64,000 nucleotides of DNA from Chloranthus sessilifolius (Eukaryota > Streptophyta > Magnoliopsida > Chloranthales > Chloranthaceae), in assembly GCA_021018995.1 (NCBI GenBank), contig CM037588.1:144107725-144171724 (forward strand). Reading direction: 5' to 3'. Positions 26,730 through 53,124 of the stretch are shown piece by piece. Made by a program: the position numbers and the translations under genes. Position 1 is the stretch's first letter, and each line of letters begins with the position of its first letter. Below the pieces are notes generated by a model. It worked only from the letters and a program-made list of their open reading frames with translations, had not been told where the DNA came from and did no database searches.

Positions 26730-28083
26730 TGATCGATTTTAAATGTTACCCTTGCAAGTGCACAAGATCAGTTGTAGCACGGTAAAATTAAGGGTGTCAA
26801 ACCCACAGGGAAACGTGAAATTTAATTAATCCTTAAAGAGATTTAAGAAACCCGAGGAAGTACCAAGGGAGAAAGTTTGATTTGCCACACAAGTACAACA
26901 TGATTCTCAATGCAATAAAAGAATGTCAATCTAGGCTAGAACAAATTATAATAAAGAAGAAAAATGATAGTATATGAACTGATCAAGGAGTTAGCTAACT
27001 ATCGATTCGTAACTTTTCTACCATTCAATCTCACAATTTCATTTTAAGTCAAAACACCATCATTTATTAGGAAAATAAATAAATCGAGAAGAATGTGACT
27101 ATTGATCCGGCATACCCTATCTTAAAACTATGACTCAGCCTATCATTGCGGTATGAATCATGTAAAAAGTATAGCATATCTCAAAATTCTAAGTCACGCC
27201 AATGATAAATCAATCATTCTGCAGCCTAGATCGACCTGCAGGAACAAATCTAGATGGAGTGCTTCTTTTACGGTCGTTGATAACTACGATCAACGACTAT
27301 AAATGAAGACTCAATAATATTCAACCAAGCATACACTTATAACAAAATGATTTAATGACAATACCATGAAATTGTAGAAACAATAATATAACAGTTACTT
27401 ATCTACGGTTCGCTTCCTCCTTGAGCAAATGACTTTAGCCGCTCATCCTCGGTATACAAGCCCGTTGTAGATCCGAAGATATCCTTTTAACAATGATCTT
27501 TTATTTATCACAAAATTCTCTTTACAATGCATTTATTCCTAGGTACAATCTATGCTTTAAAGAAAAAACTGTCGAGAAGAAGAATGAAAACCTAATACAA
27601 TCTAATAAGAGAGGAACCCTAAAAGAAAAGGAAGAAAGAAGATGAGAGGATAGAATCAAAAATAGAGATTAGAGATCTCCGAGAGCCCCCAAAATAAAGA
27701 CGTAACTTTCTTTATAAAGGGGCGAGCAAAACATTTCCCTAATAACCTCAATCGATTGAGAATTAATCCTCAATCGATTGATTTTGAATTCGAAATAAAA
27801 GGGAAAAGTTGTCTTCTCTTGTCAATCGATTGACACATAGGGGTAGATTCTTCATTCTCTTGATGGATATTGAGCTTTTTCACGAACTTTTATGCTTTTT
27901 TTGACCTTTTTGGTCCACAGTTCTTGTGTAACCCTTAATTGTCCTCTTTTATGTTCTTTAATGATCCAACGGTCAGAAACACCTGTAAACATTGAAACTA
28001 CATAACAACCATTAAATGCTTTCATCAGTTAGCTAAATATAAGTTTTAAGATGCAAAATATAGTCACATTTCGACACTGATCA
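26730..28083 (-). repeat. Athila 3' LTR
   Basis: About 1.35 kb, matching 40114-41492. It carries three TCAATCGATTGA sites (27748, 27770, 27822); the other LTR has four. A polypurine tract (GGTTTGGGGGTG on -) lies at about 28084-28096, exactly outside the LTR as expected for a 3' copy. Confidence 0.95.
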
Positions 28084-28096
28084 CACCCCCAAACCT
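28084..28096 (-). promoter_or_regulatory. Polypurine tract of Athila
   Basis: GGTTTGGGGGTG on - directly abuts the 3' LTR. It would prime plus-strand DNA synthesis. Similar tracts recur at about 29941-29954 and 30003-30030. Confidence 0.8.
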
Positions 28097-28099
28097 ACA

Positions 28100-30250
28100 C
28101 TTTGCTAGTCCTCGAGCAAAGAGAATGACAAATAACTAATCAATTTAGCAAATAAAATGAATGCCACTTTCGTAGGGAACACGATTGCATTTAGCCTATG
28201 CAACAAGCCTTTAAACCCCTAGGTGATCCCTAGTGGAGGAGTTTTATCGCCTGAAGGTTTTCAAAGAAGGTACCTATAAACTTCAAAGCTTATGAATTTC
28301 AGAATTGTAATAATGCCCTTTCATGGTTAATTATCCGTGAAATCTTGTAAGATGCTACTGTCCATGCTTATTTTAGTAATGCTCATTCAATTTAGTTCAT
28401 TGTTCTTCCAATACTCATAATTCATGCCCATAATTTTATCACTGCTAAAGTTCTTTTATCTGAGAATAAGTTTAAACTAAAAGTCTTTAGATTCTATGTC
28501 CAGACTCAATTCTCACCATAGGTGTGCACTCAAAATGAAATCGCTCCTGATGAATAGTTTTATTTTTCACTCATATGTGAGATGGAATTACAATGCAATT
28601 AGAAAATTCTCACATATTATAAGAAAGATGGTGCATCAAAGAATTTTTAAAAGAAATCTCATTAAGAAAGATATTTGTATTTTAAGCATGCATATACCAA
28701 GCACCATAGACATTGTATAATCATTCTCCATAAGGCATTTACCATTCATGATTGAATCAAGAAGTTCTTTCAAAGGTTATAATGGGGCTCGGGTGAAGGT
28801 TACGAAAGAAAGGGAAAATTGGATTCAAGTTTCTCTGAGAAATTGATAAAAGAGACACAATTGATTTCTGATATTTTTCACACTTTTGAATTCTCTAGAA
28901 CCTTTTCCTCTTCATCATACACTTTTCTCTTTCTTTTCTTTTTCTTTTTAACACTACTTTCATATATTTCTCTACTTCTTGCACTAAGCTGAATTTTCTT
29001 TTTCTTCTCCCCTTTTATGTTTTTTTATTGTATTTTATTATTATTATTATTATTTTTTGCTTCCACATTATTACCAAGCTCTCAATTTCCTTTCTTGCTC
29101 TCATCCCTAATTTCTCAGAAATAAAAGGGTAAGGCTTTTAAAACCGGTGTGGGGTATGGTCAATATAGCTTAACAAGGAATATTTCAGGATAAAACTCTT
29201 CAGTTAAGGCTCAAACGGGGTGCAACAAGATAAATCAATGTATGGTGGGATATTTTAGGCACTATCGAGCCAAAGATGGCCTTTGATCATCTCCTCTCAT
29301 GATGGTATTAATGCCTATTTGTCTCGAATTTTTATACAATGTTTTCTAGCACAATAATATAACATATGCAAAATCAACAAATCGAAATAAATTATATGAG
29401 ATTTCAACAATTGAGAATGAAGTTCAAAGATACTCTGCATATTTTCAGCACTCATAAAAAAAATGAGGACACGTTCCAAATCTCACTGAGATTTAGTCTT
29501 CCTTTGGAATCTTGAGATTTCCAGTTCTTAACTTAAACTCTCAGATTTGGGACTTAAAGCAATGCGATGGTACAAAAATTTTTAGGCATAAATCATGAAA
29601 ATCATCATTCATCCTATGTTGAAATTAATGAGCATTCATAAAACAGTCATGGCATGATAACAATCTTTAAAGAATTTCCTGTCATAAACAATTTAAGAAC
29701 ATAAATAAAATTCGACATCCATAAGTCTAATTGTCATCAATTACTAGATTGACGCCAATTCATCAATCGATTGACTGATAAGGGTTTCCAATAGGTCTGT
29801 TGATTATCAGTCCATCGATTGAGACATTTGGTGTGGTCTCAATCGATTGACTGATGCACTTTTAATATTCGAAAAACAATCCCTTTTTTATTTATTTATT
29901 TTTATTTTATTTTTATTTTTAATAATAAATCGAAAGAAATACCCCCCCAAACCTGAACCGTTTAATGCCCTCATTGATTGGATTTTGGGAAAGTGAATGA
30001 GACCCCCCCCCCCCCCCCCCCCCCCCAACCTGTTAAATGCAATCGAGGACCAAGAAAGCAGATCAAGTGAAAGGTATTGTGATCAAAAATTAAAAACACA
30101 AATAACTAACTAAACTAAACTTTTATTAAATTTGTGCAAAGTATTACACTTATTGAAAATTTAAAGAAAATAACCTAATTCTAGAACAAGTCTAAAAGGA
30201 AAAACATGAAGGAAATTAAAATCTAAAAATATTAAAATAACCTAATCTAG
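28100..30250 (-). other. Athila non-coding region between extra ORFs and 3' LTR
   Basis: About 2.1 kb without supported genes. It holds TCAATCGATTGA-type sites at 29763, 29811 and 29839, pyrimidine-rich stretches (28900-29080), short ATT repeats near 29037-29056, and a run of 24 C at 30003-30026. The content is typical of the long 3' non-coding part of Athila. Confidence 0.6.
30003..30026. repeat. Poly-C (poly-G on the element strand) run of 24
   Basis: An uninterrupted run of 24 C is followed by AACCTG. The same CCCCCAAACCT context occurs at 29942 and at the polypurine tract at 28086. This suggests expansion of a polypurine-tract-like sequence. Run length may be affected by sequencing error. 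Confidence 0.85.
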
Positions 30251-30276
30251 ATCTTAAGACTAACATTCCGAATCCT

Positions 30277-30663
30277 TTAGTCGTCCATGGAGGATCTCCT
30301 TTCCTTCAGCTTCGGGAACACATAATTCCACATCTCCTCTGTGATCCCACCCTCGCCTGGTGGTGGAATGGGTGATTGTGGCAGAGATGTTGGTGGGGTA
30401 GAAGGTGGTGGTATGAGAGGCAGTGGCGGATTCAATTCTGCCCATAAATAGGTCGGAATCAAATTCTTTGACGGGTTGTTTACGGCATCAGCTGAACGTT
30501 CAAAGCTTGATTTGACTTCTTGATTTGATTCTAAGTTGAGGTCGATGACTTCACGATTTGAAAAATCAGGCCGTGGTTGAGGTGAGTGGTAGCGTGCATG
30601 TTTCCGAGCCGGTTCCTTCAATTTCTTTACTGCAGATTGGGTATGATACCGGATGGGTGCCAT
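30277..30663 (-). mobile_element. Small Athila downstream ORF (128 codons)
   Basis: An open frame on - starts MAPIRYHTQSAVKKL and has a Pro-rich C-terminal part ending near KERRSSMDD. It lies downstream of the larger extra ORF and upstream of the polypurine tract. I recognise no domain. The start has TCAATCGATTGA pairs upstream (30864-31121). It may be an independent small protein or a non-functional frame. Confidence 0.4.
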
Positions 30664-30863
30664 AGCTAAAGCTTGGGGAAGAGGAAATAATATTTTGACT
30701 AAGGTGATGGGAAGGACTACCCTAAGAGTGGTTTAAATAGAGAAGACTTTATAAAACACATACTCTAAAGACTCAAAGAAACCTCCTAAGTACGGACTCT
30801 AAGGGGACTCAAACCTCTCTATTTTCGGAGTGGAAGAGGTATTTTTCTGGAAATATACCTCAG

Positions 30864-31121
30864 TCAATCGATTGAAACTTTAGTGTCAATCTATTGACAC
30901 TAGATGCCAAGGGTGCCATTGGGTGCACGGTTCAAACTTTCCTTTTTCAAAACAAGTGTTTTTGGAGAAACTTTTTGTTATTAACAGATTAGATAGTTCT
31001 GCCCATGCAGAAGTCAATCGATTGAGAGTTGTTCCTCAATCGATTGACTATTCGGAGTTGCTTTTCGAGAATTACAAATTGAAGTGCTCAATCGATTGAG
31101 AGTTTAATCTCAATCGATTGA
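30864..31121 (-). repeat. Athila TCAATCGATTGA pairs between the extra ORFs
   Basis: Three pairs start at 30864/30886, 31014/31036 and 31088/31110. Each pair has a start-to-start distance of 22 bp. The sites are exact or differ by one base. Confidence 0.9.
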
Positions 31122-31310
31122 CTGATGCACTTATGTACCAATCCGAGAATGAACAGAAATTATCACACTAAAAACACTCTGATTTCATTGATTTAATTGA
31201 TTTGATTACACCCACATGATCCCATCATCACTAGAAAACAAACTACGATTAATCCTACCTAAAAACAAAATGAAAAACACATCAAACAAAGTAAAACACC
31301 AACACAAACA

Positions 31311-32556
31311 CTAAACAAACACAAACACCAACAAAAACCCAAACAAAAGCAAACAATCATTGATCATTATCATCATCATCATTTTCAGGGTCTCCCTCCT
31401 CATCCATCGCCGCTCTCGCTCCTGTGATGAATCCGTCGGCACGCCCAGGGAATGATTCCCGAGCCATCCGCATGAGAAGTGAAGTTTGAAATTATAAACA
31501 TCGATCAATACCTCCCACAGTGGCACTCAACCCATCAATCCGTGCCTCGAGGCAAGCTACTGCTGCCTCGACATTAAAATCGGGGACCTCTTCAGGACGA
31601 GGTCGTCTAATGCCGCCGGGTTGGTGTTGTGTGGGGTTTGGTCGGGGAGGAGGAGGAGGTACATCATCGACGTCAATAGGTGGTGGCGTAACACGCAGAA
31701 TGACCTTGATGCTCTTGCCCCAAATGTTCGTGCCATAGTGATAAAATTGCATATCACCCATCTCTTCATCATCATAAATCGGGCACCCAATTTGGTCCAA
31801 AATATGAATCACGTAGTGCGGGAAATGTAAAAGAATAGCTTCTCGCTTCTTTGGTGCGGTGGTGATCACGATGTCGCTATGACACCGATATATTTCTTCA
31901 AGCATCAATCCTGGAGCATCAAACCACATATTCGTGTGCGCTGCATAAAGTGCCAACACCTTATTCTTCATCCTCTCACTCTTCGTGCCATGCGGTAAGA
32001 GATTGTTTGACATTACAATGCCCCAAAACAAGATGTCCATTGGTAGGATGGCTCGTTTAGTGGACAAACCGGACATGCTCCGTCCTCCACACATGTTGTT
32101 AATCATTTGGTCCTGGCTGAGATCAATTGTGGGATTGATGTGGTGGTTCAATGGACGAATCACGTAGAAATTGAATGCACGTGCGAGATCGGCGACATGC
32201 AAGTTATATCTCCAATTGTCGATCTCGAGGCGGATGAACGATAATCTCGTTGGCGACAGTGGAGCGGACACCCATTCCATGTTCTGGTAAAACAACCGTA
32301 GAATACGGAGTGAGACATCAATAGGCGGAGGAGCGAGCAACATCTCCAAGTGTAGAGCTTCAATGAATTTGATCGAACGAGCGGCTTCTGCGATGTGTCG
32401 ATTTTTTGCAAGATCAAAGAAATTCTCCATTTGAAACTGGCAATCCACGTACTCGTCATTTGGGATGTTCATAGGAATGTTGGCGGGACGAGGTGGTTGG
32501 TAGATCAGTGGTCCGAGCTTGCGCCATTTTCGATCGTCGAGGAGAATGAAAATCAA
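31311..32556 (-). mobile_element. Athila extra ORF downstream of integrase
   Basis: An open frame of 354 codons on - starts at 32556 (MIFILLDDRKWRKLGPL). It contains the VADLARAFNFYVIRPLNHHINPT and LSTKRAILPMDILFWGIVMSNN blocks, and has a Pro-rich then short coiled C-terminal part. An overlapping frame continues to 31311 with an acidic end. Such an ORF is characteristic of Athila (often listed as the Athila ORF or plant transposon protein). Its function is not established; it lacks clear transmembrane segments or a signal peptide, so an envelope role is not supported. Arrays of TCAATCGATTGA pairs flank it on both sides. Confidence 0.65.
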
Positions 32557-32641
32557 AACATTCGGATTGGAGAGTTGTGAAGAAGGGGACCACGGGTGTC
32601 CCCATTATATAATTGATTGCCAACCGATTTAGGATTGAGTG

Positions 32642-33121
32642 TCAATCGATTGAAAATGGTTGAACTTACCACATCGTGGGAATGTGAAGGGGCACTAGGC
32701 ATGCGGATGTGACGTGGTACAATCCCCTCATCCATTTTTAATGTCAATCGATTGACACAGGGATGACAATCGATTTAGAATGACCTTTTCGCGAAAAGTC
32801 ACACCGTTTAGGTGCCTTGGGAACCGGCAGAGTTAATATGCAATCAAGTCAATCGATTGAGGATTGAGTCCCAATCGATTGACATTGTCGTGCCCCTAAA
32901 AGTAGCTGGAATCGATAAGACGTGTCGATTGACGCTTCGCTTTTCGAAATTGGTCATTAATTCGAGATAATGTCAATCGATTGAAAATTAAGTCTCAATC
33001 GATTGACAAATGAAAGAAGGAGATGATGATGATGATTGAACATCAATCGATTGACAGGGTAAGTGTCAATTGATTGAGGAAATAAGGTCAATCGATTGAC
33101 TTTTTGGAGTCAATCGATTGA
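32642..33121 (-). repeat. Athila TCAATCGATTGA array upstream of the extra ORF
   Basis: Sites start at 32642, 32744/32766, 32849/32871, 32973/32995, 33043/33066 and 33088/33110. Pairs are spaced 22 bp (one pair 23). The array fills the gap between the end of integrase and the extra ORF start at 32556. That position fits a promoter or binding platform, which is inference. Confidence 0.9.
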
Positions 33122-33539
33122 AAAAGACTCTTTTTCAATTAAAAACACAAACAACTAAGAAAACACACTGGGTTGCCTCCCAGTAAGCGTTGAGTTTATG
33201 TGTCAACAGCTCGACCACTTCATTGTTCACTTTTTCGGGTCACTGAGGTATGTCGCTTCAATCCTCATCTGGGTCATTGGCTCAAACATTGGTTTGAGTC
33301 GTTGCCCGTTGACTTTGAAAATTCGATTGTCCTTAAGACTTCTAATCTCAATTGCACCATGCACGGTAGTAGATACAACCTGAAATGGTCCTTCCTACCT
33401 TGATTTCAATTTTCCTGGGTGAAGCTTAAGTCTGGAGTTGAACAACCGAACTTTTTGTCCGATGTGAAACTCCTTTCGAGAAATTTCTTGATCGTGCAAC
33501 TTTTTAAACCTTTCCTTATACATCTTCAAATTTTCATAT

Positions 33540-34400
33540 GCATCGTAGCGTAGCTCTTCTAATTCGTTCAGCTGTAGCCTTCAAGTTGACCCTGCCTCTT
33601 GCATATCGAAATTAAATCTTTTTATAGCCCAGAATGCTTTATGCTCTAATTCAACTAGAAGATGACATGCTTTCCCATAGACAATCCTAAACGGTGACAT
33701 TTCGATCGGGGTCTTGAATGCAGTACGATATGCCCAAAGAGCATCAGATAGCCGGTTCAACCAATCTCTTCTATCCGGTCATACCGTCTTTTCTAAAACC
33801 CGTTTGATCTCCCGATTCAACACTTCCTCTTGACCACTAGTCTACGAGTGATACGACATTGCCACCTTGTGGGTGACGCCGTATTTCTTCATTAAAGTGG
33901 CAAAATGGCTGTTGCAGAAATGCGAACCACCATCACTATTGATTGCTCTTGAAATCCCGAATCTGTTAAACACATTTTCTTTCAAGAATTTGACCACGAC
34001 TTTGTGGTCATTCGATCGGGTTGCCATAGCTTCTATCCATTTAGAAACATAGTCAACGACCACTAGAATGTATGAATACTCGAACGATGGGGGAAAAGGA
34101 CCCATAAAGTCGATACCCCAAACATAAAAAATTTCAACAATCAAGATCAGGTTCAGTGGCATTATATTTCATCGTGAAATATTTTCAAGCTGTTGACAGC
34201 ATTGATGCTCTTTACAAAATTTGGCAGTGTCCCGAAAGATGAAGGGCCAATAACATCCGCTTTGAAGAATCTTATGTGCGGTCTTTTATCCTCCGAAGTC
34301 GCTTCCATAGGCCCCAGCATGACAAAAATTTATGATGCTCAGTTGCTCTTCTTCAGGTACACATCTTCTGATGACTTGATCTGAACAGAATTTGAACAAC
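33540..34400 (-). mobile_element. Athila integrase (fossil)
   Basis: On -, [20 protein letters not shown] lies at about 34128-34070, and [16 protein letters not shown] follows. [18 protein letters not shown] lies around 33970-33915, covering the catalytic core blocks. The HAGAYGSDFGG end of the zinc-binding region is at about 34318-34286. The C-terminal end lies around 33540. It is broken. Confidence 0.8.
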
Positions 34401-34409
34401 TGTGGTTCA

Positions 34410-35044
34410 TCCCAAAAATAATATTTAATCTGGGAGAAAAATAGATTTTTATCATTCTTACCCCACTGCGTAGGGATTCTGCCAGTGACCAGATAAATCA
34501 CAATGCTGGCGTACCAAGGAACTTTTGTACCTGTTGTATAAATTGCCATTAACTGCTCATTCGAAAAGGTGTCACGGATAGCCTCAGATACAGATGATTC
34601 TTCAGATAGAATTCTTGACAAATGATCAGCTACAACATTTTCAACCCCCTTTTTATCTTTGATCTCGAAGTTAAATTCTTGGAGGAGTAAGATCCATCGG
34701 ATCAACCTTGGTTTTGTGTCCTTTTTCGCCAACAGATATTTCAATGCAGAGTGGTATGAAAAGACCACTATTTTCGATCTAAGTAAATAGGAACGGAATT
34801 TATCCAATGCATACACCACAACTACCAATTCCTTCTCGGTGGTAGTGTAATTTAGTTGTGCATCAATCAGCGTCTTACTGGCATAGTAGATAACATGAGA
34901 TAATTTGTTTACCCTTTGCCCTAAGACTGCTCCAATAGCATAGTCGGATGCATCGCACATGAGTTTAAAAGGTAGAGAGTAATCCGGTGGTTGGATTATC
35001 GGTGCATTTGATAACAATTCATGCAATTTTAGGAAGGCCTTCAT
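34410..35044 (-). mobile_element. Athila RNase H domain
   Basis: On -, MCDASDYAIGAVLGQR lies at about 34970-34920, followed by HVIYYASKTLIDAQLNYTT and TEKELVVVVYALDKFRSYLL. The VENVVADHLSRI block at about 34640-34605 ends the domain. This is the standard Gypsy RNase H. No archaeal-type second RNase H is present, as is normal for Athila. Confidence 0.85.
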
Positions 35045-35160
35045 GCATTCCTCACCAAATTCGAACTAAACATCTTTTCCAAGCAAGGTACACAATAGTT
35101 AGCCACCTTGCTAAAATTTTTGATGAATCATCTATAAAATCCAGCATGACCCAAAAATGA

Positions 35161-36000
35161 TCAGATTTGATGAACTTTTTTTGGTGGAGGCAGATTAGCG
35201 ATTAAGTCAACTTTTGCCTTGTCGACTTTAATCCCTTTTTTCGAAATGATATGCCCCAAAACTATTCCTTGTCGAACCATAAAATGGCTCTTCTCCCAGC
35301 TGAGAACAAGTTTGGATTCTACACAATGTTGCAACACTTGTGCAAGATGATTTAAACATGATTCAAACGTCTTCCCGAAAACAGAGAAATCGTCCATGAA
35401 TATTTCGATGAACTTGTTAATCATATCCGAAAATATGGCTAACATACATCGTTGAAAAGTGGTCGGAGCATTACATAGGTTGAATGGTATTCTACGATAT
35501 GCAAAAGTACCATAAGGACACGTGAATGTTGTCTTCTCTTGATCTGCAGGAAATACGGGCACTTGGTTGTAGCCCGAATATCCATCGAGAAAACATTAAA
35601 ACTCCTACCCTGTTAACTTCTCAAGAATTTAATCAATGAATGGAAGAGGAAAATGATCATTTCTGGTAGTCGTGTTCAATTTTTGATAATCGATGCACAC
35701 GCACCACCCCGTAGTTTCACGACTAGGTACCAATTCTCCTTCAGTAGTCTCTTTCACTGTTATCCCAGACTTTTGGGAGACAATTTGAACTGGACTTACC
35801 CATTCACTTTCCGAGATTGCATAGATTATTTCAGCATCGAGTAACTTGATGATTTCCTTTAAAATGACTTCTTTCATGTTTGGATTAAGTCGCCTCTGTG
35901 GTTCTCTCGATGGTGTAGTATCATCTTCCAGATGTATTTTGTGCATACATACTGACGGATCAATCCCTTTAAGATCAGCTAAGGTCCATCCGATAGCCTT
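35161..36000 (-). mobile_element. Athila reverse transcriptase (fossil)
   Basis: On -, CVCIDYQKLNTTTRNDHFPLPFID lies at about 35710-35630. The TCPYGTFAYRRIPFNLCNAPTTFQ block is at about 35525-35455, the catalytic box FMDDFSVFG is near 35400-35375, and GHIISKKGIKVDKAK lies at about 35255-35215. The order is canonical. It is broken. Confidence 0.88.
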
Positions 36001-36993
36001 TTTATGATCTTTAAGCACTTTTAACAATTCATGCTCTTGTTTTTCTGATAATGTTGATGAAATAATTACTGGAAGCATTTCTTGAGGTCCCAGAAAAGCA
36101 TATTTGAGTGACTTAGGCAGTTGCTTTAATTCAACGGTTGGTGGCTGCTCGATTGATGGAGTCAGCTCATCTTTTTCCTCAATAGGTAATGGTTCCACCT
36201 TAGTCTCAATTTCACATAACTTATCATCTTCACTTGATGAATTCATCCTCTTCTTTTCTAACTGTTTCTTCTCAGATCCTTTCTCCTCATAGATGGCTAA
36301 CAAAGCAGTTTTGAATTCTTCTTTGGTAAGCATTGATGGTAGAGTTTCGTCCACTACTTCCTCCACCTGATCGATGTAGAAACAATCAATCTCATCCTCA
36401 TTGGAAAAATGGTTCATCGCATGAAATATATTGAGCCTGACTTTCATGTTTCCAAAAGAAACATCTATGACTCCCATTCGACAATTGATGCAGGCATTAG
36501 CAGTTGCGAGAAATGGACGTCCAAGAATGATTGGGACTTGATTGATGGATTTAACTGGTGGTTCCATGTCCAACACAACAAAGTCCACTGGGAAGATAAA
36601 TTTGTCTATTCCAACCAAAACATCCTCGATGATACCCCTAGGTCTTCTTTCTGACCTATCAGCAAGTTGGAGTGTAACTGTCGTGGGTTTTAATTCGCTC
36701 AGTCCTAATTTCTTGTACACTGAGTTTGGGATCAGATTGACACTTGCTCCCAAATCCAGTAATGCCTTACCAATTGGCTGCCCACCAATGACACATGACA
36801 CAGTTGGGACTCCAGGGTCCTTAAGTTTTTGAGGGGCATCCAATTGCAATATTGAACTGACTTGATTAGTCAGGAACACTTTCTTTGAAACTTGAGTATG
36901 TGCTTTTCTTTTACGAGTGCATAGATCTTTAAAAAATTTGGCGTACTCAGGAACTTGCTTGATTGTTTCAAGTAATGGAAGATTTATCTTCAC
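36000..36993 (-). mobile_element. Athila protease and linker to RT
   Basis: On -, the block GKALLDLGASVNLIPNSVYK at about 36775-36715 is the Athila-type aspartic protease active site. VPIILGRPFLATANACI follows at about 36545-36490. A charged linker (Glu/Lys-rich, about 36330-36100) leads to RT. This continuous frame is the longest pol segment in the window. Confidence 0.85.
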
Positions 36994-38706
36994 CTACTTG
37001 AATGTTTCGAAGACTTCCATTTTTGACGCTCCTTTCCCATTCTAGATGGAGGTGTTAGGCACTTAGGGAATGGTGCCTTCGGGGTATAGGAATAGGGTAC
37101 ATTTTTTGGTTCTTCTTCAGGTACTTGTTGGACAATTTGAGGAGATTCTTTCTCTTTTCCTTTCTCTAGTCCTTTGCCTTTTGTCGCTTCTTTTTCTTCT
37201 TCCTTATCAGGTTCCACTGACATTTCTACTTGATTATCAACTGCTCTCCCACTTCTCAACACAGTAATAGTTTTCAACTGTTGACTATTCGATGGTCCTT
37301 CATCAGGTGATGCTTGGCCTCGAGGATTGTTGATGGGTTGGCTAGGAAGCCGACCTTCCTCTCGTTGACTCAATTAATTGGTCAATTGGCTAAATTGGTC
37401 CATCATCATCTGCTGAAAAACTTGCATATTTCACATAATCTTTTCTTCCAAATCAGAATCTTTCCAAGCAGTAGTTTGAGATTGATTAAAATTCTGATTG
37501 AAAATTTGATTTTTACGGAACTCAGAGTTTGGATGATAATAAGGCGAATTCTGTTGAAAATTAGAATTCTGTTGTGGACGAAAGTTCTGTTGTCCACTCG
37601 TTATGTTGGTTCTGTACTGCTGGTTCGCCTGTCCAGTTTGGTTTGATCCTCCCCATCCTAAGTTGGGGTGATTTTTCCATTCCGTATTGTAGGTGTTTGA
37701 GTACATGTTCCTACCCTGTCGCTGATACGATTGAGTCAGATTCACCTGCTCTTGAGGAGTAGGTTCATCAGGGAAGAATGATAAGGTAGTTGGATACTCG
37801 TTAGCCATGTGACCTGGGTGGTCACAAATTGAACAAGCCTTGGGGTTGATAGGACTTTTAGCTTACTTAGTTGCAGCTAACAGCATGTTCATTTGCTTGG
37901 ACAATATGTCAACTTTTGTTGATAGATCTGAGGTGTTGCTGTTGACATCATATGGTCCATCTCTGGTTAACACATGAGATTTAGCTGCCACATCCAAATT
38001 AGTTAGCCCCAGAGTCGCATTTTGTATTGAGGTTTGTACAACTTTTCAAACAATGCCCACAATTTATCTGCCTCCTTTGTGGCGCATGATCCTCCATAAG
38101 ATGCATCAACCATGCGCCTCTCTTCTGGAATCAGTCTATTGTAAAAACTTTGGACTTGTTGCCACCTTAGAAGTTGATGACTAGGACAACTTCTGATCAA
38201 TTCCTTAAAGCTTCTGATGCAACAACATTCATGAAATATTTCTGTAGGTTGTTGGGAGAAAAATTGAATCTTCTGATGCAACTAGATGGTTTTGGTCATC
38301 GAAAATATTTTTTAAGAAATTGACGATGTAGCTCTGCCCAACTCTGGATAGATTGTGGTTCTAACGAATAGAACCAAGTTTTTGCCTTATCTCTTAAAGA
38401 GAAAGGAAAGAGTCGTAGCTTAGCTATCTCGTCGCTGACATTGTGAACTCTGAATATTTTACACACCCCAGTAAACTCATTTAAATGAACATGTGGATTC
38501 TCATTGGATAATCCATGGAAAATCGGTAACATTTGAATCATCACGGATTTGAATTCATAATGGTTTCCTGGAATGGGGGCATGCATGATACTATCCTGAT
38601 CCTCGTAAAAACTAGGATCATTATAATATTCTAATATTCTTGGGCCCTCATCATGATTATTATTCCCATTATTTTCATTATTTATGTTTTGATTCTTCCC
38701 ATTCAT
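36994..38706 (-). mobile_element. Athila gag (fossil)
   Basis: On -, an Asn-rich start (38706, MNGKNQNINNENNGNN) is followed by HYEFKSVMIQMLPIFHGLSNENPHVHLNEF and LRLFPFSLRDKAKTWFYSL, the Retrotrans_gag pattern. A CSICDHPGHMANEYP zinc-knuckle-like segment lies at about 37835-37795. A Gln/Asn-rich tail (37750-37430) and a Glu/Lys-rich segment near 37200-37080 complete it. It is broken. Confidence 0.85.
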
Positions 38707-38898
38707 TTATGGCCTGTGATCTGCCATGATTTCAGTATGATGATACCGATTCCTTTGGATTCTGTTATTCTCTCTGCAAGATCATTCGATCTCAAGATTA
38801 AATGGTTGTAGATGTGGGTGATGAAATCAAGTAAAACTCATGCACCAACACCCAAAACAAGGATTGATGAATCCACAATGAACTCACAGATTTCAGCT

Positions 38899-40035
38899 TC
38901 AATCAATTGAGGCAATGGTCTTGATCGATTGAAACAAAACACACAACAATATTCTAATAGAGACTTATCCGTCAATCGATTGATGTATTAAAATCAATCG
39001 ATTGAGGTTCAAAAGTCTAACTGGACAGCACAAAAATACCAGCCGAGAAGGCAAGCAGCAGAGGTTTAGTTAATCGATTGACAAAGAAATGTCCATCGAT
39101 TGAAAGAGTTCCAAAAATTTCCACAGCAATAATATTCCAGTCTCAATCGATTGACAGAGAATTTTTAATCGATTGATTTCTAAGATGAACAGTAGCCACT
39201 ACTAGAAGAAACGAAATTTTTTTTTTTTTATTATTAAATTCAAATTCCGAAATTCAAAACTCAAAAATTAAAATTTAAAAATTGAAAGTCAAAATTTAAA
39301 TTTCAAAATTTTAATCCAAATTTCAAATTTTAAATTCGAATTTTAAGATTCAAAATTCAAAATTTAAAATTTCAAAAATCGAAATTAAAATTCAAATTTT
39401 AAAATTCAAAATTCAAAATTTCAAAAATCGAAATTAAAATTAAAATTTTAAAAATTTAAATTCAAAATATAAAATTCAAAAATTTTAAATTTTAAATTCT
39501 AAAAACAAACCCACAAAATCTTATAAAATCTTACCTAAAAGAGGCAAAGAAGGAAAAGAATAAAAGACCCTATAAATCCTTAAACAAGAGATCCTAAAAA
39601 TCTTCTACTTCCTAAAAGAACTCCACAAAATCTTATCAAAGAGAATAAAATAAAGAAAAGAAGATTTTGCAAATCAAAATTTTAATCCAAATTTCAAATT
39701 TAAAAATCAAAGTTCAAACATGAAAATGAAAATTCAATTTAAAAATTAAATTTCAAAATTCAAATTATAAATTTCAAATTTTAAAAATCTTTCAAGCTCC
39801 ATATTTCAGATTTCAACAATCTCAAAATTTTCATCATTCTAATTTTAAAAATCCAAAATTTTAATATTCAAACTTTCGAAATTAAAAATTCAGATTTTTA
39901 TTCCTTGGAATTTTAAAAAATTAACACTCAAAATAGTCGATCGATTGGCACTTTCGAATCAATCGATTGACACATCAGCACGTCACAACCACAAAAACTA
40001 GTCGATCGATTGAGAGAGAGGTCTCAATCGATTGA
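38899..40035 (-). repeat. Athila leader: TCAATCGATTGA pairs and AT-rich low-complexity block
   Basis: Pairs start at 38899/38921, 38972/38994, 39070/39092, 39143/39165, 39937/39959 and 40002/40024, all 22 bp apart. Between 39210 and 39930 lies AT-rich sequence made of AAATTCAAAATTT-type words. The block separates the primer site from gag and contains no coding frame. Confidence 0.9.
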
Positions 40036-40089
40036 CTATCACACAATTCTACACAAATATCTTTTCGAATTTATCAAAATTTCGCCGAT

Positions 40090-40107
40090 TCCCCGGCAAC
40101 GGCGCCA
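40090..40107 (-). promoter_or_regulatory. Primer-binding site of Athila (tRNA-Asp type)
   Basis: On -, TGGCGCCGTTGCCGGGGA lies 6 bp inside the 5' LTR edge. This is the known Athila primer site. Confidence 0.92.
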
Positions 40108-40113
40108 AAAACT

Positions 40114-41492
40114 TGATCAATTTTAAATGTTACCCTTGCAAGTGCACAAGATCTGTTGTAGCACGGTAAAATCAAGGGTGTCAAACCCACAGGGAAACGT
40201 AAAATTTAATTAATCTTTAAAGAGATTTAAGAAACCCGAGGAAGTACCAAGGGAGAAAGTTTGATTTACCACACAAGTACCACACGATTCTCAATGCAAT
40301 AAAAGAAAGTCAATCTAGGCCAGAACAAATTATAGTAAAGAAGAAAAATTATAGTTTATGAATTGATTAAGGAGTTAGCTAACCATCGATTCATAACTTT
40401 TCTACCATTCAATCTTACAATTTCATTTTAAGTCAAAACACCATCATTTATTAAGAAAACAAATGAATCGAGAAGAACGTGACTATTAATCCGGCATACC
40501 CTATCTAAAAACTATGACTCAGCCTATCATTGCGGTATGAATCATGTATAAAGCATAGCATATCTCAAAATTCTTAGTCACGATAATGATAAATCAATCA
40601 TTCTGCAGCCTAGATCGGCCTGCAAGAACAGATCTAGATGGAGTGTTTCTTTTACGATCGTTGATAACTACGATCAACGACTGTAAACGAAGACTCGATA
40701 ATATTCAACCAAGCACACACTTATAACAGAATGATTCAATGATAATACCATAAAATTATAAAAACAATAATAGAACAGTTACTTATCTACGGTTTGCTTC
40801 CTCCTTGAGCAAATGACTTTAGCTGCTTATCCTCGGTATGCAAGCCCATTGTAGATCCGAAGACATCCTTTTAATAATGCTCTTTTATTTATCACAAAAT
40901 TCTCTTTACAATGCTTTTGTTCCTAGGTACAATCTATGCTCTAAAGAAAAAATTGTCAAGAAGAAGAAGAATGAAAACCTAATACAATCTAATAAGAGAG
41001 GAACCCTAAAAGAAAAGGAAGAAAGAAGATGAGAGGATAGAATCAAGAATAGAGATTAGAGATCTCCGAGAGCCCCCAAAATAAAGACGTAACTTTCTTT
41101 ATAAAGGGGCGAGCAAAACATTTTCCTAATAGCCTCAATCGATTGAGAATTAATCCTCAATCGATTAATTTTGAATTCGAAATAAGAGGGCAAAGTTGTC
41201 TTCTCTTGTCAATCGATTGACAATTGATTCTCAATCGATTGACACATAGGGGTAGATTCTTCATTCTCTTGATGGATATTGAGCTTCTTCATAGATTTCT
41301 ATGCTTCTTTTGACCTTTTTGGTCCACAGTTCTTGCGTAACCCTTAATTGTCCTCTTTTATGTTATTTAACGATCCAACGGTCAGAAACACCTGTAAACA
41401 TTGAAACTACATAACAATCATTAGATGCTTTCATCGGTTAGCTAAATATAAGTTTTAAGGTGCGAAATATAGTCACATTTTGACACTGATCA
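40114..41492 (-). repeat. Athila 5' LTR
   Basis: About 1.38 kb, matching 26730-28083. It carries four TCAATCGATTGA-type sites (41135, 41157, 41209, 41231), which form two 22-bp pairs. The LTR is bounded by TGATC/GATCA ends, followed by the target copy ATCCT at 41493-41497. Confidence 0.95.
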
Positions 41493-41497
41493 ATCCT

Positions 41498-42640
41498 CAT
41501 TCCCCTTCCCCCACCATTGGAGAACATGTTAGAGCAAAAAAAAATGATGATGCTAGGTTCAATCCAAACTCATTATTCTTGTATTAGCAGGATGCTTTCA
41601 AAAATACATATATAAAAAAATCGAGTGAGAACATTACGACGAATGAACAAGTCAATGAACTCAGGGACGCATAAGCAGGCCATGAGGACGCCTCTGGTAA
41701 CTTTACTAGAAGTGTATAAGCAAGCTGCGAGGGCATCCCTAATATCTCCATACTACTAGATGTTGTCGTAAGGTGGCGGGAGGAGGACAAAACTCTTGCT
41801 AGCCATGGAATGTGAGATTTTGATGGTACTGACACATGAAGAAGAGCTCGATCATGGCACCCCGTATCCCTTTGAGAAAAATATTGTTACTTATTCCTTT
41901 TAGAAAGCATTAGATACAAACTATTTCCCATATCACTGAGCCTTACAGGATACTCCTAGGAATGAAACTGAAAATCGATGAATGATGACTGATGCAATCA
42001 CCTACTATACCTACCGTACTTCTCCCTAATAACCACAGGATAGAGTGACCAACACCCTAAGATGAACCCCTATATATATAACTGACCTAATCAAAGAGAC
42101 CTCCCCCGGTTTGGCGACAACACTGATGGACGTTTCTTCAAAACTAACTCACCAAATACCCATGACTGCTTATAGACCCAAAGTGCTTATCTAAAACCCA
42201 GAAAAGCTCTATTATATCTACACAGTGGGATATTTTTTTGGTCGGAAATAGAATCACATTAGAAATGCTAACTCGTCCACAAAAAAAGGGGAGAAATGAC
42301 GAAGTTACCATCCAAAGAATGCTACCGAAGAAAAAAAAAAGAAAACTAAAGCATATATCCATCTTTTACTACCAGACCTCGGTCTGAGACACTCACCCCC
42401 CTTGACAACTGGCAAGGGAGCGAAAAAAAATTACTGATAGCATTACCTTTACAAGGGCAGATACAAAGCAATCCTCAACTAGCACCAGGCCAGCTCAAGA
42501 AGCATCCAAGTCCCCATGACGGTTGATGGCGCAAAAAAAAAAAGAGAAGTGAAAGGCAAATGCAAGAGGTAATCAAAAGAAAATGAGCCAATCAAGTGCA
42601 TCATCCAGACCAAAAATCTCTCCATATATATATCAAAATT
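41498..42640. other. Element B spacer between the pol end (beyond Athila) and the antisense gene 3' end
   Basis: About 1.1 kb directly continuing B sequence after the Athila insert. Short frames here have no recognisable domain. A-rich tracts are common. It ends at a hairpin (42666-42679) that I place at the 3' end of the antisense unit. Confidence 0.5.
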
Positions 42641-42665
42641 TTCTTTTCTTTTTACATTTGTCACT

Positions 42666-42679
42666 GGGGGCATTCCCCC
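42666..42679. terminator. Hairpin 1 of three covarying copies, downstream of the antisense PMD gene
   Basis: GGGGG-CATT-CCCCC stem-loop, followed by a TGTATATACAA context. Related hairpins at 49020 and 50248 have different but still complementary stems. A role as 3'-end or processing signal of antisense transcripts is inference. Confidence 0.5.
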
Positions 42680-42739
42680 CTGTATATACAACACACAGTC
42701 AATGGATAAAATAAACACACACACCCCCTACTCCCTATG

Positions 42740-43314
42740 CTGCCGCTAGGATGGACGAACACCATTGTCGCCAGTATCATCAGCTCAGAGGTTTGTAGAT
42801 TGATCATCCGAAAAAAAAATCCTGACACCCGGAGTCTGCGGAACCTCTAGATGACGAGGCCCCTCCATAGAACCCCCCTCACTCGTCTGGCTAACAGACC
42901 ATCTCGATCAAGAACGAGGGGGATACCCAGTAAGAATATCACAAACGACCGAATTCCCACGAGCATCATCCCTGACACGATCATGTGACGTGTGATGAGA
43001 CTGCCCAGCCGAGGAACCTGTAGCCCTCAACTCCGATCCGTCAAGCTGACTAACCAACCTATGCACCCCTTGCTCACTCCTCGTCAGATGATACTGTAGC
43101 TGATCCAGAGCACCTGCATCTCCACCCGCATCGTCTGACGTGCCACCTCTAATGCCTCTGTTTGAGTCCTCTGTGTGACCATCATCTCCATGAGCTGGTC
43201 CTCGCGACTTTGTGTCTCCCCAAGGAACTGTCTCGCCTCAGGAGTGGTGCGCACTCATGCTGCCTCTAGATACGCCTCAAGCTGACGAACCTGTATAATT
43301 AGACCAAGTCAAAG

Positions 43315-43360
<46 letters not shown>

Positions 43361-44503
43361 TATAGAAAAAAGCTTTGAAAAGGAAAGAACCATACCAGAT
43401 CCAGCCTCTCCTCCAGAAGTCGCTCAACCGTCATAGCGGTCACTGGATCAACAGGAGGCACAGAAAGAACAACAAACATAGGCGGCTGCAACGAGAACAA
43501 ATAAATATATCAGAAAATAGTATAATGACAAATAAACTATGAACACAATTACTAAAATATACTTGAGAAGGAATAAGAACAGACCCCTGAGGGAGAGCCT
43601 CGGGAGCGGAGTCTGGAACCGCCTGCACAAAAAAAAAAACAAGCCAACACAAAGTGTGTCACAGCAAATAGAATGAAATGACCTAAATAAAATTACACCG
43701 AACCAGAAATTATACTTGACTCTCTGGGCGTAGAGAGGCAGCAGTCGCCTCCCTCGTCTGAAGGTCCTCTGCAACCTGACGCTGAAATACCAACACAATG
43801 TTAGTAAACTATTAAGGAAAATGAAACCATAACACCCAATGAACTAATACAATTATATAAACGAGTCAAAAGATTGAGGAAACTCACCCAATGCTCCATC
43901 TTGGCCCGAAGCTGAGCCTTCACTGGATCCTCCCGACTAGAAGAGGCAACCGAAGAAGGATCAAATTTCTGAGCAGAAGCCCCCGCGACAGAAAGCTCTG
44001 CCGTCTGCAAACATTGACAAATGTGTCAGAATCAATAAGAGTCTACAAACTAATAAATCTAACCAAGATACTTACCAATCGATCAATCTCTGATCGCAAG
44101 CTGGCCTCCACCTCTCGACCGACCTGCTGCTGACCGCGTAACAACTCAATCAGCGTCACATGACTAGCGACCTCGGCCTCCCTCTCAGACTGTCCAAAAT
44201 AAAACAAAACACCACAACTATATCAGAACGGCTGAAAGACCAAGTCAACGTAATACACAAAAACTAATAAATTAACTCACCAGGAGTCGTCGAGTCTTCG
44301 CTAGTCGAGCCCCCAACTCATCCCCCGTTGCCTTAGCCTGAGCAATCGAGAAGGCTAAGGAGGGCAGCATCTCCTCATTGGGATGAGGAGCACACCCCAT
44401 ATGCTCCATCACCCTATGGAGGGTGTCTATTGCCCCCCGTACACTCGCGGTGAGATGGCCCTTCTCCAATGCGGCCAATCTCTCCCTCAATGTCAACGCC
44501 TAC
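42740..44503 (-). pseudogene. Element B antisense PMD gene, 3' exons (fossil)
   Basis: Short in-phase exons on - are flanked by AG acceptors and GTAAGT/GTGAGT/GTAT donors: 44076-44189 (38 codons), 43888-44004 (39), 43563-43622 (20) and 43396-43485 (30). A last exon begins at 43290 with a Gln/Glu-rich coiled-coil-like segment. The exon upstream of the first donor (44496-44284) encodes RERLAALEKGHL and a helical tail. The introns are 70-100 bp and AT-rich, with one holding a (TA)n tract. The spliced C-terminal part has no known domain. The 5' half lies beyond the solo Athila LTR. Confidence 0.65.
43322..43357. repeat. (TA)n microsatellite
   Basis: About 18 TA units inside an intron of the antisense PMD gene of element B. 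Confidence 0.95.
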
Positions 44504-45846
44504 TGATCGACACTGAAATATGACCATATTTTGCACCCTAATACCAACATTTGGCTATCCGATGAAAGCTATCTAACGACTGTTGTCTAGTTTTAGTAAT
44601 TTTAGGTGTTTCTAACCATTGGATCTTTAAAGAGCGTAAAAAAGGATAATTAAGGGTTTCATATGAACATTGGACCAAGAAGTCAACAGAAATACCAAAA
44701 TTCATGAATTTGATTGATGAGCCCAGAACATCCACCAAGAGAATGATGATGTCACCTTTATGTGTCAATCGATTGAGAACAAAATCTCAATCGATTGACA
44801 AGAAAGATAGTTTTTCCCCCTTTATTTAAAATTTGAATTAATTCAATCGATTGAGATTTGAACTCAATCGATTGAAATTAAAATTTGACTAATTCACCAA
44901 AAAGAGAATTTGAATTCAATCAATTGGGATTTGAAGTTCAATCGATTGAGCTTATTATGGAAATTGTCTTACTCGCTCCCTATAAAACCAAATCTACGGC
45001 TTAGGGTTAAGGGTTCTCTCTTTTCCTTTAAGTTCTTCTGTTGGTAGATTGTGTTTAGTTTTTCATAGCTTTTCTTTACAGTTCTTTGGAATGATAGTTT
45101 GTATTAGGAACAAAGCATTGTAAGGAGAGATCTTTTGATAAATAAAATTACATGATTAAGACGATGGCTTCTGGTTTACAACAGGCTTATACACCGAGGA
45201 TGAGCGGCTAAAATCACTTGTTCAAGGAGGAAACGACCCCTAGATAAGTAACTGCTAAAAGTGTGTGCTTAATTGAATATCATTGAATGCTCATTTATAG
45301 TAGTTCATCTTAGTTATCAACGACCATAAAAGGGTCATTCTATCTAGATATGTTCCTACAGGCCGATCTAGGCTGCAGAGTGATTATTTCTTTACTGTCG
45401 TGATTTAGAATTTTGAGATACACTATGCATTTTACATGATTCATATCGCAGTAGGCTGAGTCATCATTTTTGGGTAGGGTATGCTGGATCAATAGTCACG
45501 TTCTTTACGATTCATTTTTCTTCTTGATAAATGATGGTATGAAATTGTGAATTTAATTGTAGAGAAGTTACGAATCTAGGGTTAGCAAACTCTTTGATCA
45601 TTTCTTAAATTGTCATTTTCTTTGTCATCATTTGTTCTTGCTTAGATTAATTTACATTTATTGCTCTAGCATAGTGTGGTAACAGTTTAGCGAATCGACT
45701 TTCTCTCCCTTGGTACTTCCTTGAGAAAACTTTTTCTCTTTGAGAATTAATTAAATTTCACGCTTCCCCATGGGTTTGACACCCTTGATTTCACCATGCT
45801 AAGATAGATCTTGTGCACTTACAAGGGTACAATTTAAAATCGATCA
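44504..45846 (+). mobile_element. Solo Athila LTR inside element B's antisense PMD gene
   Basis: The 1.34 kb segment has TGATC..GATCA ends and matches the Athila LTRs in inverse orientation. Flanks are CCTAC (44499-44503) and CCAAC (45847-45851), a target duplication with one mismatch. It carries TCAATCGATTGA-type sites at 44765/44787 (22 bp), 44843/44864 (21 bp) and 44916/44938 (22 bp). It is more diverged from the full Athila than that element's LTRs are from each other, so it comes from an older or different insertion. It interrupts an exon of the PMD gene. Confidence 0.93.
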
Positions 45847-47990
45847 CCAACTTAGGCCTGCCAACCGTAAAAGAACCACTCTCATGAAAGGGACGTGTGA
45901 AGAGGCGCCCACCACCTAATGCAACAAACCATCTCCTAAACTCTCGGACGTTCGCCTCATCATGCGCCCCTTTCACCCTGGTCCCCCCAACTCTGAAATC
46001 CGTCATCTGAAGCGCCATCCGCTTTGCAAAGTTTCGGTGAGGGGGGTCGGTCATCCTCTTCTCCACCCTATGGCAAATCTCCGGAGGGACTCACTGAGCG
46101 AGCCCCAGCTGTCGCATCGCCTGAGATAGGTCGATCCTCTCCACCTTCTCTAAACAATGGACCCAAATGTCCAAGTCAAAGAAGGGTTGGCCAGACTGAA
46201 TCACTGGCACACCCGCATCCTCCTCTCTCCCGTAAGGCCTCCAAATTACCTACAACCAAACAAGCAAGCCAACCCATCAATGAAACCTCATAACCTAAGA
46301 GCCCGAAACAAAACAAAACAAAACGAGAACATGATGATATATACTTACCTCGCATGCATGTCCTCAAAAAGACCTCGTGCAATCTGGAGATCCGAAGACC
46401 AGCGACGACCCCTCAGCGCTACCCTCCACACATGCATCCGCAGAAATGTGAACGTCACCTCCAACGGAACCCCCAGACGAAGAAAAACAAAATAATCATA
46501 TGCCTAAAACTAGAAAACAAATAATAGAAATACTGAATAACTGCTACGACCAAAAGAAAAATAAATACACTATGACACCAACTAACTAAAACTCAGTTGG
46601 AAGAAATGAAGGAAACCTCCGATCATCGTGACGCCCTGTCCCTGACGATAAAGCTGCTCATAGAGATGTGCCAATGCGGCCGCACCACATGCATAAGAAG
46701 GGACCTGATCCAAGTCCCTGAGAATCAGTAAAAACAACTCGGTGACGCATCCCCTAGTCGAAGAAGAAAAGAGTACTGCACCGAGTAAGTGCATCAAGAA
46801 CGCTCGAAGCACCCTATCCGCAGCCAACCCCGGCTCCACCACGGGCTCCCGACCCGCCGCCACCACACAATGCACCTCGTAAGACACCCTCGCCTCCGAA
46901 TGACGCCTCGGAGGGACAAAGCCACTGGCAAATGTGTCAAACTACACCCGGCTCCGACCCACTCGACCTATAGGACACACCCAAAATCTCCTTACACACC
47001 TCCAAATACTCTCCCGCCATCTGCCCTATGATCGGCTCACCCTCGAAACAAAGACCAGTGATGTGGACCCAATCCTCTGGAATCGGCAATATCATACCAA
47101 CTGGAAAGAGAAGTGTCTGATGCTCCTCCCTCCACCTCTCCAAGATCGCCTCAATCAGACCATGATCGACCTAAAAGGGTTCCAACTCTAAGATCGGCCT
47201 GAAATCGAAAGACACCAGTCGTGCCCACTGAAACTCCGGCAAGGCACGGTACCAAGTATGGGACTCAGTCCACGCCGAGCTGATAGCCAACTGCGGAGGC
47301 TCCTATCGAATGAAATATAAGTAGAAAAATAAGACTAACACACACGCCCATGACAAGTAGATTTAAAGCTAAAAGAAAATGAAATATGCCCCAAACACAC
47401 AATAATAACTCATAACAAACACACAAAATATGATAAAAACAATAAAGCATAAACGTGACCCATCTCTAGATGCGAGCATGATGTATAAGTGAGCACACGA
47501 TCAATAATCAATGTAGGTTCGACATAAATTAAAAAGGGTTTCCAGATCCTAATAAACCTAAAATGCCTAGAAAAATCAAAGGAACTCTTGCTCACGGGTA
47601 CCTACCCGGCCTCAAGCGAAGAAATCTTCCAGCAGGAAGTGTCTGCGATCTTGACACCCCTCCCCCTAGTGCTCCTCAGCTCTCTCCTCCTCAACCCTCT
47701 CACCCTCATCCTCAACTCCACCCAGTTAAATCTCAGGTACCTCCTCCCTGACCGCTACTTGGTCACCCTCCGATATCTCCTCTCTAACCATCTCCCCGAT
47801 GTCCTCTCCCATGACAGCATCGGTCCGAGCATTGGAGGTCTCACCCATCTTCCCCATCATCATCCTCTCTAACTCAAAAATAGTAAGCTCGTGCCTCCCA
47901 CCACCCTCAGACTCCGTCCTAGAACAAAAAGCTTGAAAAACTGGAAAGAACAAAAGAAATGGCACCTGAAACGGACGATCGGACCGCGAG
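45847..47990 (-). pseudogene. Element B antisense PMD gene, 5' exons with plant mobile domain (fossil)
   Basis: On -, the first coding exon starts at about 47965 (MPFLLFFPVFQAF). ERWREEHQTLLFPVGMILPIPEDWVHITGL lies around 47140-47050. LRAFLMHLLGAVLFSSSTRGCV and the GAAALAHLYEQLYRQ block lie at 46820-46640; these are core PMD patterns. VRGTRVKGAHDEANVREFRRW-type sequence at about 45990-45920 continues toward the interrupted exon. The same exons are found on + at 59950-61690. PMD proteins are linked to silencing and development in plants; the role in elements is unknown. It is broken. Confidence 0.75.
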
Positions 47991-47999
47991 ATATCGTGA

Positions 48000-48500: not shown

Positions 48501-48599
48501 AGCAAGTTCACAGGCTTAAATTAGGAGACTTCCGACATTGATTACCAACCTAAACTCCGCCTTGGTTAAGACCAATCCAAAAGCACTCCTGACTTAGAA

Positions 48600-48850
48600 C
48601 GTATACACCCCAAACTAAACTAAAAAAAATGCACCCCAACATCATTTTTACTCTTCAACTAAAACCAAACTAAGCTAAAAAAAATACCCCTCATCACTTA
48701 CGCACTCCAACTGAGACCAGAAAAAAAGAAAACGCCCAACATCATTTACACACTTCAACTAAATCCTGACTAAACTAAAAAAATGCCCCTCATCACTTAC
48801 GCACTTGATCTTAGACTAAATTAAAACTAAAAAAAATGCTCCCAACATAC
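48600..48850. repeat. Degenerate tandem repeat in element B (about 50-bp units)
   Basis: Units such as CCCAACATCATTT-CACTTCAACTAAA and CCCCTCATCACTTACGCAC alternate, each separated by a CTAAACTAAAAAAAATG-type linker, giving a higher-order period near 100 bp. They lie in the non-coding zone between antisense units. Confidence 0.7.
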
Positions 48851-49660: not shown

Positions 49661-49669
49661 CTTTACATT

Positions 49670-50230: not shown

Positions 50231-50247
50231 AAATTACAAGTATCACC

Positions 50248-53120: not shown

Positions 53121-53124
53121 GCGT

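Follow-up and report, generated by a model that had tools for sequence, protein, structure and literature searches.

Paired 12-bp palindromes at exact 22-bp spacing in the non-coding DNA of an Athila-type retrotransposon from Chloranthus sessilifolius

Structure of the locus

A stretch of 64,000 nucleotides from Chloranthus sessilifolius (assembly GCA_021018995.1, contig CM037588.1, positions 144,107,725 to 144,171,724 of the forward strand), hereafter the window, was analyzed for a short palindrome that recurs around one mobile element. The window holds one long retrotransposon with long terminal repeats (LTRs), which lies on the minus strand and is flanked on both sides by the 5-bp target-site duplication ATCCT. 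Nearby, on the plus strand, there is also a solo LTR that belongs to a related family and has a target duplication with one mismatch (CCTAC/CCAAC). Both contain copies of the 12-bp palindrome TCAATCGATTGA, most of them arranged in pairs whose starts are exactly 22 bp apart, and these pairs are confined to non-coding DNA. The features and their coordinates within the window are collected in Table 1.

The coding part of the element was assigned with a Pfam scan of six of its ten minus-strand open reading frames (ORFs) of at least 100 codons. Gag, protease, RNase H and integrase were matched, in that order when read in the sense of the element, in disconnected open pieces from 38706 to 33842, which were followed by the two extra frames ORF1 and ORF2. 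Because integrase comes last in the domain order, the element belongs to Ty3/gypsy and not to Ty1/copia. With this order, a primer-binding site (PBS), a polypurine tract (PPT) and extra ORFs downstream of pol all present, it was classed as an Athila-type Ty3/gypsy element. The name Athila was based on the layout, on the finding of a preliminary description of this DNA, and on the PBS and PPT, which are taken to be of Athila type. The PBS-like stretch presumably fits tRNA-Asp. ORF2 gave no Pfam match up to E 0.1, and ORF1 gave a weak, sub-threshold match to PF20167 Transposase_32 (14.7 bits vs a cut-off of 45). A protein search with ORF1 returned 2247 candidates, none at E 0.001 or better.

The 5' and 3' LTRs are identical at 1274 of 1354 aligned bases. 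Transitions account for 66 of the 80 substitutions, and the two copies differ at 15 of 39 CpG positions, a pattern expected if the element is methylated. The observed-to-expected ratio of CpG is 1.24 in the leader and 1.28 in the linker between pol and ORF1, at GC contents of 27 and 40%, respectively. Between two of its palindrome clusters (39230-39900) the leader is very A+T-rich and contains AAATTCAAAATT-like repeats, and the tail of the element includes a run of 24 C residues at 30003-30026.

Table 1. Features of the retrotransposon and the solo LTR, with palindromes and pairs named by their first position; the last row gives the pair found in Acidobacteriota
Feature	Position	Strand	Remarks
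3' LTR	26730..28083	minus (element sense)	direct repeat of 40114-41492; palindromes 27748, 27770, 27822
PPT TTTGGGGGTG	28084-28093	minus	PPT-like sequence in the expected place, directly before the 3' LTR
Non-coding tail, including PPT	28084..30276	minus	palindromes 29763, 29811, 29839; 3-mismatch partner 29741
ORF2	30277..30732	minus	151 codons stop to stop; no palindrome
Cluster upstream of ORF2	30864..31121	minus	three pairs: 30864, 31014, 31088
ORF1	31492..32604	minus	370 codons stop to stop; no palindrome
Cluster upstream of ORF1	32620..33121	minus	pairs 32620, 32744, 32849, 32973 and the run 33043/33066/33088/33110
gag-pol region	33138..38706 (lower boundary approximate)	minus	open only in pieces; gag, protease, RNase H and integrase domains
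Leader quartets	38899..39176	minus	two: 38899+38972 and 39070+39143; pairs 73 bp apart
Two pairs close to PBS	39937..40035	minus	39937, 40002
PBS-like stretch TGGCGCCGTTGCCGGGGA	40090..40107	minus	read from sequence
5' LTR	40114..41492	minus	pairs 41135 and 41209; TATAAA 31 bp past 41135-41146
Solo LTR, related family	44504..45846	plus	pairs 44765, 44843 (21 bp), 44916; TATAAA 31 bp past 44938-44949
Exact palindrome pair at 22 bp, Acidobacteriota	L031 5233-5266; L030 3649-3682		between two divergent regulator-like genes

Distribution and spacing of the palindromes

When up to two mismatches were allowed, 46 sites for TCAATCGATTGA were found in 26730-45846. The null for site and pair counts was provided by 100 dinucleotide shuffles, in which the mean was 2.24 sites and the maximum 6. 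The sites in the real sequence formed 19 pairs exactly 22 bp apart, and the shuffles formed none, which confirms the observation of the preliminary description. All 18 pairs listed there were recovered at the stated coordinates with their starts 22 bp apart. Counting partners with three mismatches raised the total to 21, the additional pairs being 33066/33088 and, each with one 3-mismatch partner, 29741/29763 and 32620/32642. Near-misses at 21 or 23 bp, three of which had been mentioned in the preliminary description, were located at 44843/44864 (21 bp), 33043/33066 (23 bp) and 40359/40382 (23 bp, both members with three mismatches). The palindromes of the tail are spaced irregularly, at 48 and 28 bp, the latter between 29811 and 29839.

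The element alone accounts for 39 sites with at most two mismatches, and the element and solo LTR together for 45. The leader carries 12 sites, the linker directly upstream of ORF1 (32605-33137) 11, the gap between ORF1 and ORF2 6, the 5' LTR 4, the tail 3, the 3' LTR 3 and the solo LTR 6. Pairs 27748 and 41135 are one pair present in both LTR copies, and the two LTRs are not independent. The single remaining site of the 46, at 43866, lies outside the element and the solo LTR and looks like chance. At the same threshold, no site was found in the gag-pol region, ORF1 or ORF2. The earlier claims that gag-pol lacks the palindrome and that the pairs are confined to non-coding DNA are in agreement with this result; gag-pol contains nine sites at exactly three mismatches, none of them paired at 22 bp. 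The rest of the window (1-26729 and 45847-64000) contained one site with at most two mismatches and no pair.

The core of the palindrome is AATCGATT. Its decamer in the array, CAATCGATTG, has two bases between CAAT and ATTG, and this centre was CG in 41 of the 45 sites of the element and solo LTR, as counted by eye.

Position before TATA boxes and conservation between LTR types

All three LTRs (5', 3' and solo) have a TATAAA that starts 31 bp past the last palindrome in the sense of the element, two of the three being copies of one. The solo LTR carries an extra pair further upstream. TATA-like words also occur downstream of internal palindromes. In the ORF1 linker, TATATA starts 30 bp (an overlapping word, 32 bp) past palindrome 32642-32653. 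Upstream of ORF2, TATATT lies 28 bp past palindrome 30886-30897 and 6 bp past its partner. In a rotation test on five non-coding segments, with one LTR only, 3 coincidences of a palindrome with TATAWW were counted vs a mean of 0.36, and 0.0054 of 5000 rotations reached 3, with a bin of 28-32 bp that was picked after the distances had been seen.

The promoters of the LTR and the solo LTR were then compared in a gap-free alignment of 110 columns drawn backward from the TATA box. Palindrome columns were identical at 21 of 24 positions and the others at 41 of 86 (Fisher p 0.0004); therefore, the words and their distances have been held while the surroundings were replaced. A three-row LTR alignment, which misplaces the extra pair of the solo LTR, gave a similar picture for the 5' LTR vs the solo LTR, with 42 of 44 palindrome columns identical vs 78 of 127 nearby (Fisher p 6e-6) and 907 of 1213 overall outside the palindromes (Fisher p 6e-4). 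One 22-bp unit present in the 5' LTR and in the solo LTR is missing from the 3' LTR, as by deletion between two palindromes.

Anatomy of the pairs and second-order spacing

The structure of the pairs was examined on 20 of the 21. Pair 27748 was left out because it is the LTR copy of 41135, and the 20 pairs comprise 39 different palindromes because 33088 is shared by two of them. The numbers of changes per half-site position were 5 at T1, 7 at C2, 4 at A3, 1 at A4, 1 at T5 and 5 at C6. With so few changes at A4 and T5, AT is therefore the most constant part of the half-site. A G precedes the first member in 14 of 20 pairs, and a C follows the second member in 11 of 20; the symmetry of the unit tends to center on the middle of the pair and not on each palindrome.

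The 10-bp spacers had been called unconserved, which holds in part. They have drifted to a mean pairwise identity of 0.362 (36%) with the spacing kept, but this value is still above the 0.264 of shuffled letters. The likeness represents either remnants of common descent or a weak preference. A plain 22-bp tandem duplication was rejected as the origin of the pairs, the flanks being unlike the spacers (left, 55/200 vs 60.1 shuffled; right, 65/200 vs 62.6). The exception is the solo-LTR pair 44916, for which Tandem Repeats Finder reports a period of 22.

Of the 13 distances between successive pairs, 5 measure 73 or 74 bp, a frequency equaled in 0.00045 of trials with a uniform draw from 60 to 151 and a 2-bp bin, the range having been picked from the data. 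The linkers within the quartets so formed are unlike one another, agreeing at 1 to 12 of 30 bases upstream and 5 to 8 of 30 downstream, and it is their length that recurs. Six comparisons were made between quartet spacers; four gave agreement at 7, 6, 7 and 9 of 10 bases and two at 3 of 10, one of these two involving a quartet that has lost a member. Spacings of 22 and 73.5 bp correspond to about 2 and 7 helical turns of 10.5 bp.

Other repeats were observed in the window. An unrelated palindromic set around GGCGTGTGTATTACACACGCC, with a period of about 47 bp, lies at 9700-9900 and 57500-57700 and may be a comparable array belonging to another element. Inverted-repeat arrays at 14714-15296 and 53244-53826, the first read as sequence and the second only as consensus, have the near-constant loop TGAAAYAATA and differing, mostly self-complementary stems. 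Unlike the palindromes of the element, whose letters are constant, these arrays hold the loop and vary the stems.

Comparison with known systems

A control design of this kind is already known from Sireviruses, in which the repeated motifs (RMs) were described by Bousios et al. 2010 (PMC2829016). According to the passages of that paper drawn on here, the LTR carries many palindrome copies a short way upstream of a conserved TATA box, and further copies lie in the linker upstream of the env gene. Clusters of Sirevirus RMs also form CpG islands; in the present element, the raised CpG ratios of leader and linker given above go with low GC contents. Twelve Sireviruses have a CGG-CCG core. The thirteenth, tobacco Tnd-1, has eight copies of ACAATCGATTGT, all in the LTR, and has neither env nor linker copies. 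The present array resembles the Sirevirus RMs in having at least eight palindrome copies with dyad symmetry (39 sites in the element), in its LTR copies shortly upstream of the TATA box (31 bp in all three LTRs) and in its linker copies, which number 11 and stand directly upstream of ORF1, a candidate env-like gene. With Tnd-1 it also shares a word, the decamer CAATCGATTG being the inner part of both palindromes.

There are also differences. The host of the present array is Ty3/gypsy rather than Ty1/copia, and its core is not CGG-CCG, which Tnd-1 also lacks. Copies stand in the leader and in the ORF1-ORF2 gap as well, and the pairing at 22 bp is strict, whereas the same passages describe no such pairing for Sireviruses. 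PMC2829016 calls the RM Sirevirus-specific, with other Ty1/copia elements as its comparison set. Among the papers listed by literal searches for TCAATCGATTGA and CAATCGATTG, the titles other than that paper were on other subjects, and no paper on the motif in Athila was found among those listed from the open-licence literature. As far as seen, the Ty3/gypsy host, the strict 22-bp pairing, the leader and ORF1-ORF2 clusters and the word in common with Tnd-1 are new.

The exact 34-bp pattern was found at two places in a prokaryote genome collection, both in Acidobacteriota, namely Geothrix rubra NZ_BSDD01000003 and the metagenome-assembled genome JAJZQW010000038, in look-alike surroundings (Table 1). 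At L031, the one locus tested, both divergent genes matched TetR_N, with a whole-protein score of 45.9 bits for the first and a score of 48 for the second. The first protein also matched CecR_C, and an outer membrane efflux gene adjoins. Mechanical ORF starts touch the pair, and later ATGs would put it between the genes. Judged from its position, this pair is a likely operator for a putative TetR-type regulator. The identical 12-bp palindrome thus stands twice at exactly 22 bp in both settings, but the bacterial case is a single pair with a longer palindrome and was taken as convergence. It offers an outside hint on the geometry because the operator of a dimeric regulator is expected at such a place. 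Among viral contigs, 29 stretches matched the short core pattern and 2 matched two decamers separated by 8-16 bases of any sequence. The viral loci retrieved had at most two sites each at one mismatch or fewer, and these matches were read as chance.

Interpretation and alternatives

We consider the palindromes to be cis-regulatory sites for a dimeric, sequence-specific protein that would bind in same-face pairs and activate the LTR promoter and probably internal promoters, and we put the probability of this reading, which draws on sequence, at roughly 60%. A dimer would bind each TCAATCGATTGA through the half-sites TCAATC/GATTGA. Two dimers 22 bp apart, separated by two helical turns, would face the same side of the DNA, touch each other and bind together, and arrays of such pairs would bring the transcription machinery to the TATA box that lies 31 bp further along in the LTR. 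The arrays probably also act on internal promoters before ORF1 and ORF2, where the TATA-like words may be used; this would give the extra ORFs promoters of their own, and the leader copies would serve as downstream enhancer sites. Same-face protein pairs fit best because the spacing has persisted through the drift of the spacers, and because the LTR array is fixed before the TATA box. The binding protein is most likely a host transcription factor, the alternative being a product of the element itself. A lead, and no more than that, comes from WOX-type homeodomain and ARR-B proteins, whose half-sites are TCAATC- or GATT-like.

Several observations weigh against regulatory sites of this kind. 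The sample consists of one full element and one solo LTR. The TATATT before ORF2 is a weak box, and no TATAWW follows the leader or tail clusters within 150 bp. Tnd-1, a Sirevirus with a like motif, has no conserved TATA motif in the account of PMC2829016 used here. Helical phasing between successive pairs was not significant (Rayleigh p ~0.07 at 10.5 bp, n = 13). Finally, spacers and flanks have a slight dyad trend, which counts against protein sites because a hairpin predicts it too. Comparing each spacer with its own reverse complement gave 82/200 (shuffled mean 69.4, p 0.02, uncorrected and one of many tests), and comparing its first with its last base gave 11/20 (mean 6.94, p 0.037, uncorrected).

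Hairpins, in RNA or as cruciforms, would make the pairs an RNA signal or a source of small RNA, as has been proposed for the LTR palindromes of Sireviruses. Each member of a pair, being self-complementary, can base-pair with the other to give a 12-bp stem and a loop of 10 nt, and this stem was predicted in sense RNA for all 20 units (-9.0 to -24.2 kcal/mol, computed without a shuffled control). The dyad trend suits such a fold. A scan at step 10, exclusive of the 3' LTR and most of ORF1 and ORF2, found 2 of 1255 segments of 110 nt, both on palindrome quartets, that passed -40 kcal/mol, the limit for microRNA-like structure in PMC10760457; that study reports no obvious peak of such structure for maize Ty3 elements. 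The changes in the stems point the other way. All 23 altered cells of 240 were one-sided and none was compensated on the other side, leaving 17 broken pairs and 6 G-U pairs in sense RNA and 13 and 10, respectively, in antisense RNA. A stem alone would require neither the same sequence across about 45 copies nor a loop length fixed at 10, and the 5' LTR copies before the TATA box would lie outside a transcript started there, whereas the 3' LTR copies would lie inside. Hairpins are unlikely on this balance, and a DNA-binding protein is favored because none of the 23 changes was compensated, the letters are constant and the loop length is exact. The one-sided changes are not proof of protein sites because they may be young.

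An anti-silencing system encoded by the element, in which the ORF1 or ORF2 protein would read the palindromes and strip DNA methylation from its own copies, is doubtful but stands foremost among the alternatives. In VANDAL21, the protein VANC21 recognizes a short motif that occurs for the most part outside coding sequence (PMC5735166), and the present motif is likewise dense in non-coding and rare in coding parts. No role is established for either ORF1 or ORF2, and the open frame of ORF1 extends over 370 codons. However, the VANDAL21 motif YAGTATTAY is non-palindromic, often stands in tandem repeats and in one orientation, and is read by a DUF1985/DUF287 protein, whereas the units here are palindromic and the pairs are not tandem copies. 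Neither of these two domains, named there for VANC, was detected at E 0.1 in the six ORFs scanned, ORF1 and ORF2 included. The constant distance from palindrome to LTR TATA box points to transcription rather than anti-silencing. A bolder combination, rather unlikely in our estimate, is a self-encoded addressing code. The ORF1 or ORF2 product would bind as same-face dimer pairs, and as pairs of pairs 73-74 bp (seven turns) apart, across all non-coding parts, marking the element as a unit for transcription and against silencing. This would be an independent Ty3/gypsy counterpart of VANC, with Athila and the copia element Tnd-1 converging on CAATCGATTG.

Selfish or neutral spread, by which the 34-bp unit would have been multiplied through slippage, template switching or conversion and would have no function, is improbable. 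The 3' LTR is short of exactly one 22-bp unit, quartet spacers are alike in four of six comparisons and the spacers retain a weak consensus, all of which suit it. Against it, the palindromes are conserved where their surroundings differ, the linkers are unlike although their length recurs, and the LTR TATA distance is held. Least probable by far are sites for a host HD-Zip factor, a resemblance raised in the preliminary description. The CAAT/ATTG half-sites are indeed common to both, but HD-Zip I sites, CAAT(A/T)ATTG, have one central base (PMC3060862) and the palindrome has two. An HD-Zip site was rejected on this difference in spacing, CAAT-N-ATTG vs CAATCGATTG. From the preliminary description we thus retain the dimeric protein in same-face pairs, which fits the constant letters, the kept spacing and the fixed TATA distance best, and drop the HD-Zip factor.

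Conclusions

Palindromic repeat arrays upstream of LTR promoters had been reported as a hallmark of one copia genus. That a Ty3/gypsy element shows strict two-turn pairing, both in its LTRs and ahead of each extra ORF, suggests that plant retrotransposons of unrelated kinds reach the same control design. The 34-bp unit provides a concrete probe for finding the protein and for testing the expression of the extra ORFs in Athila-type elements.

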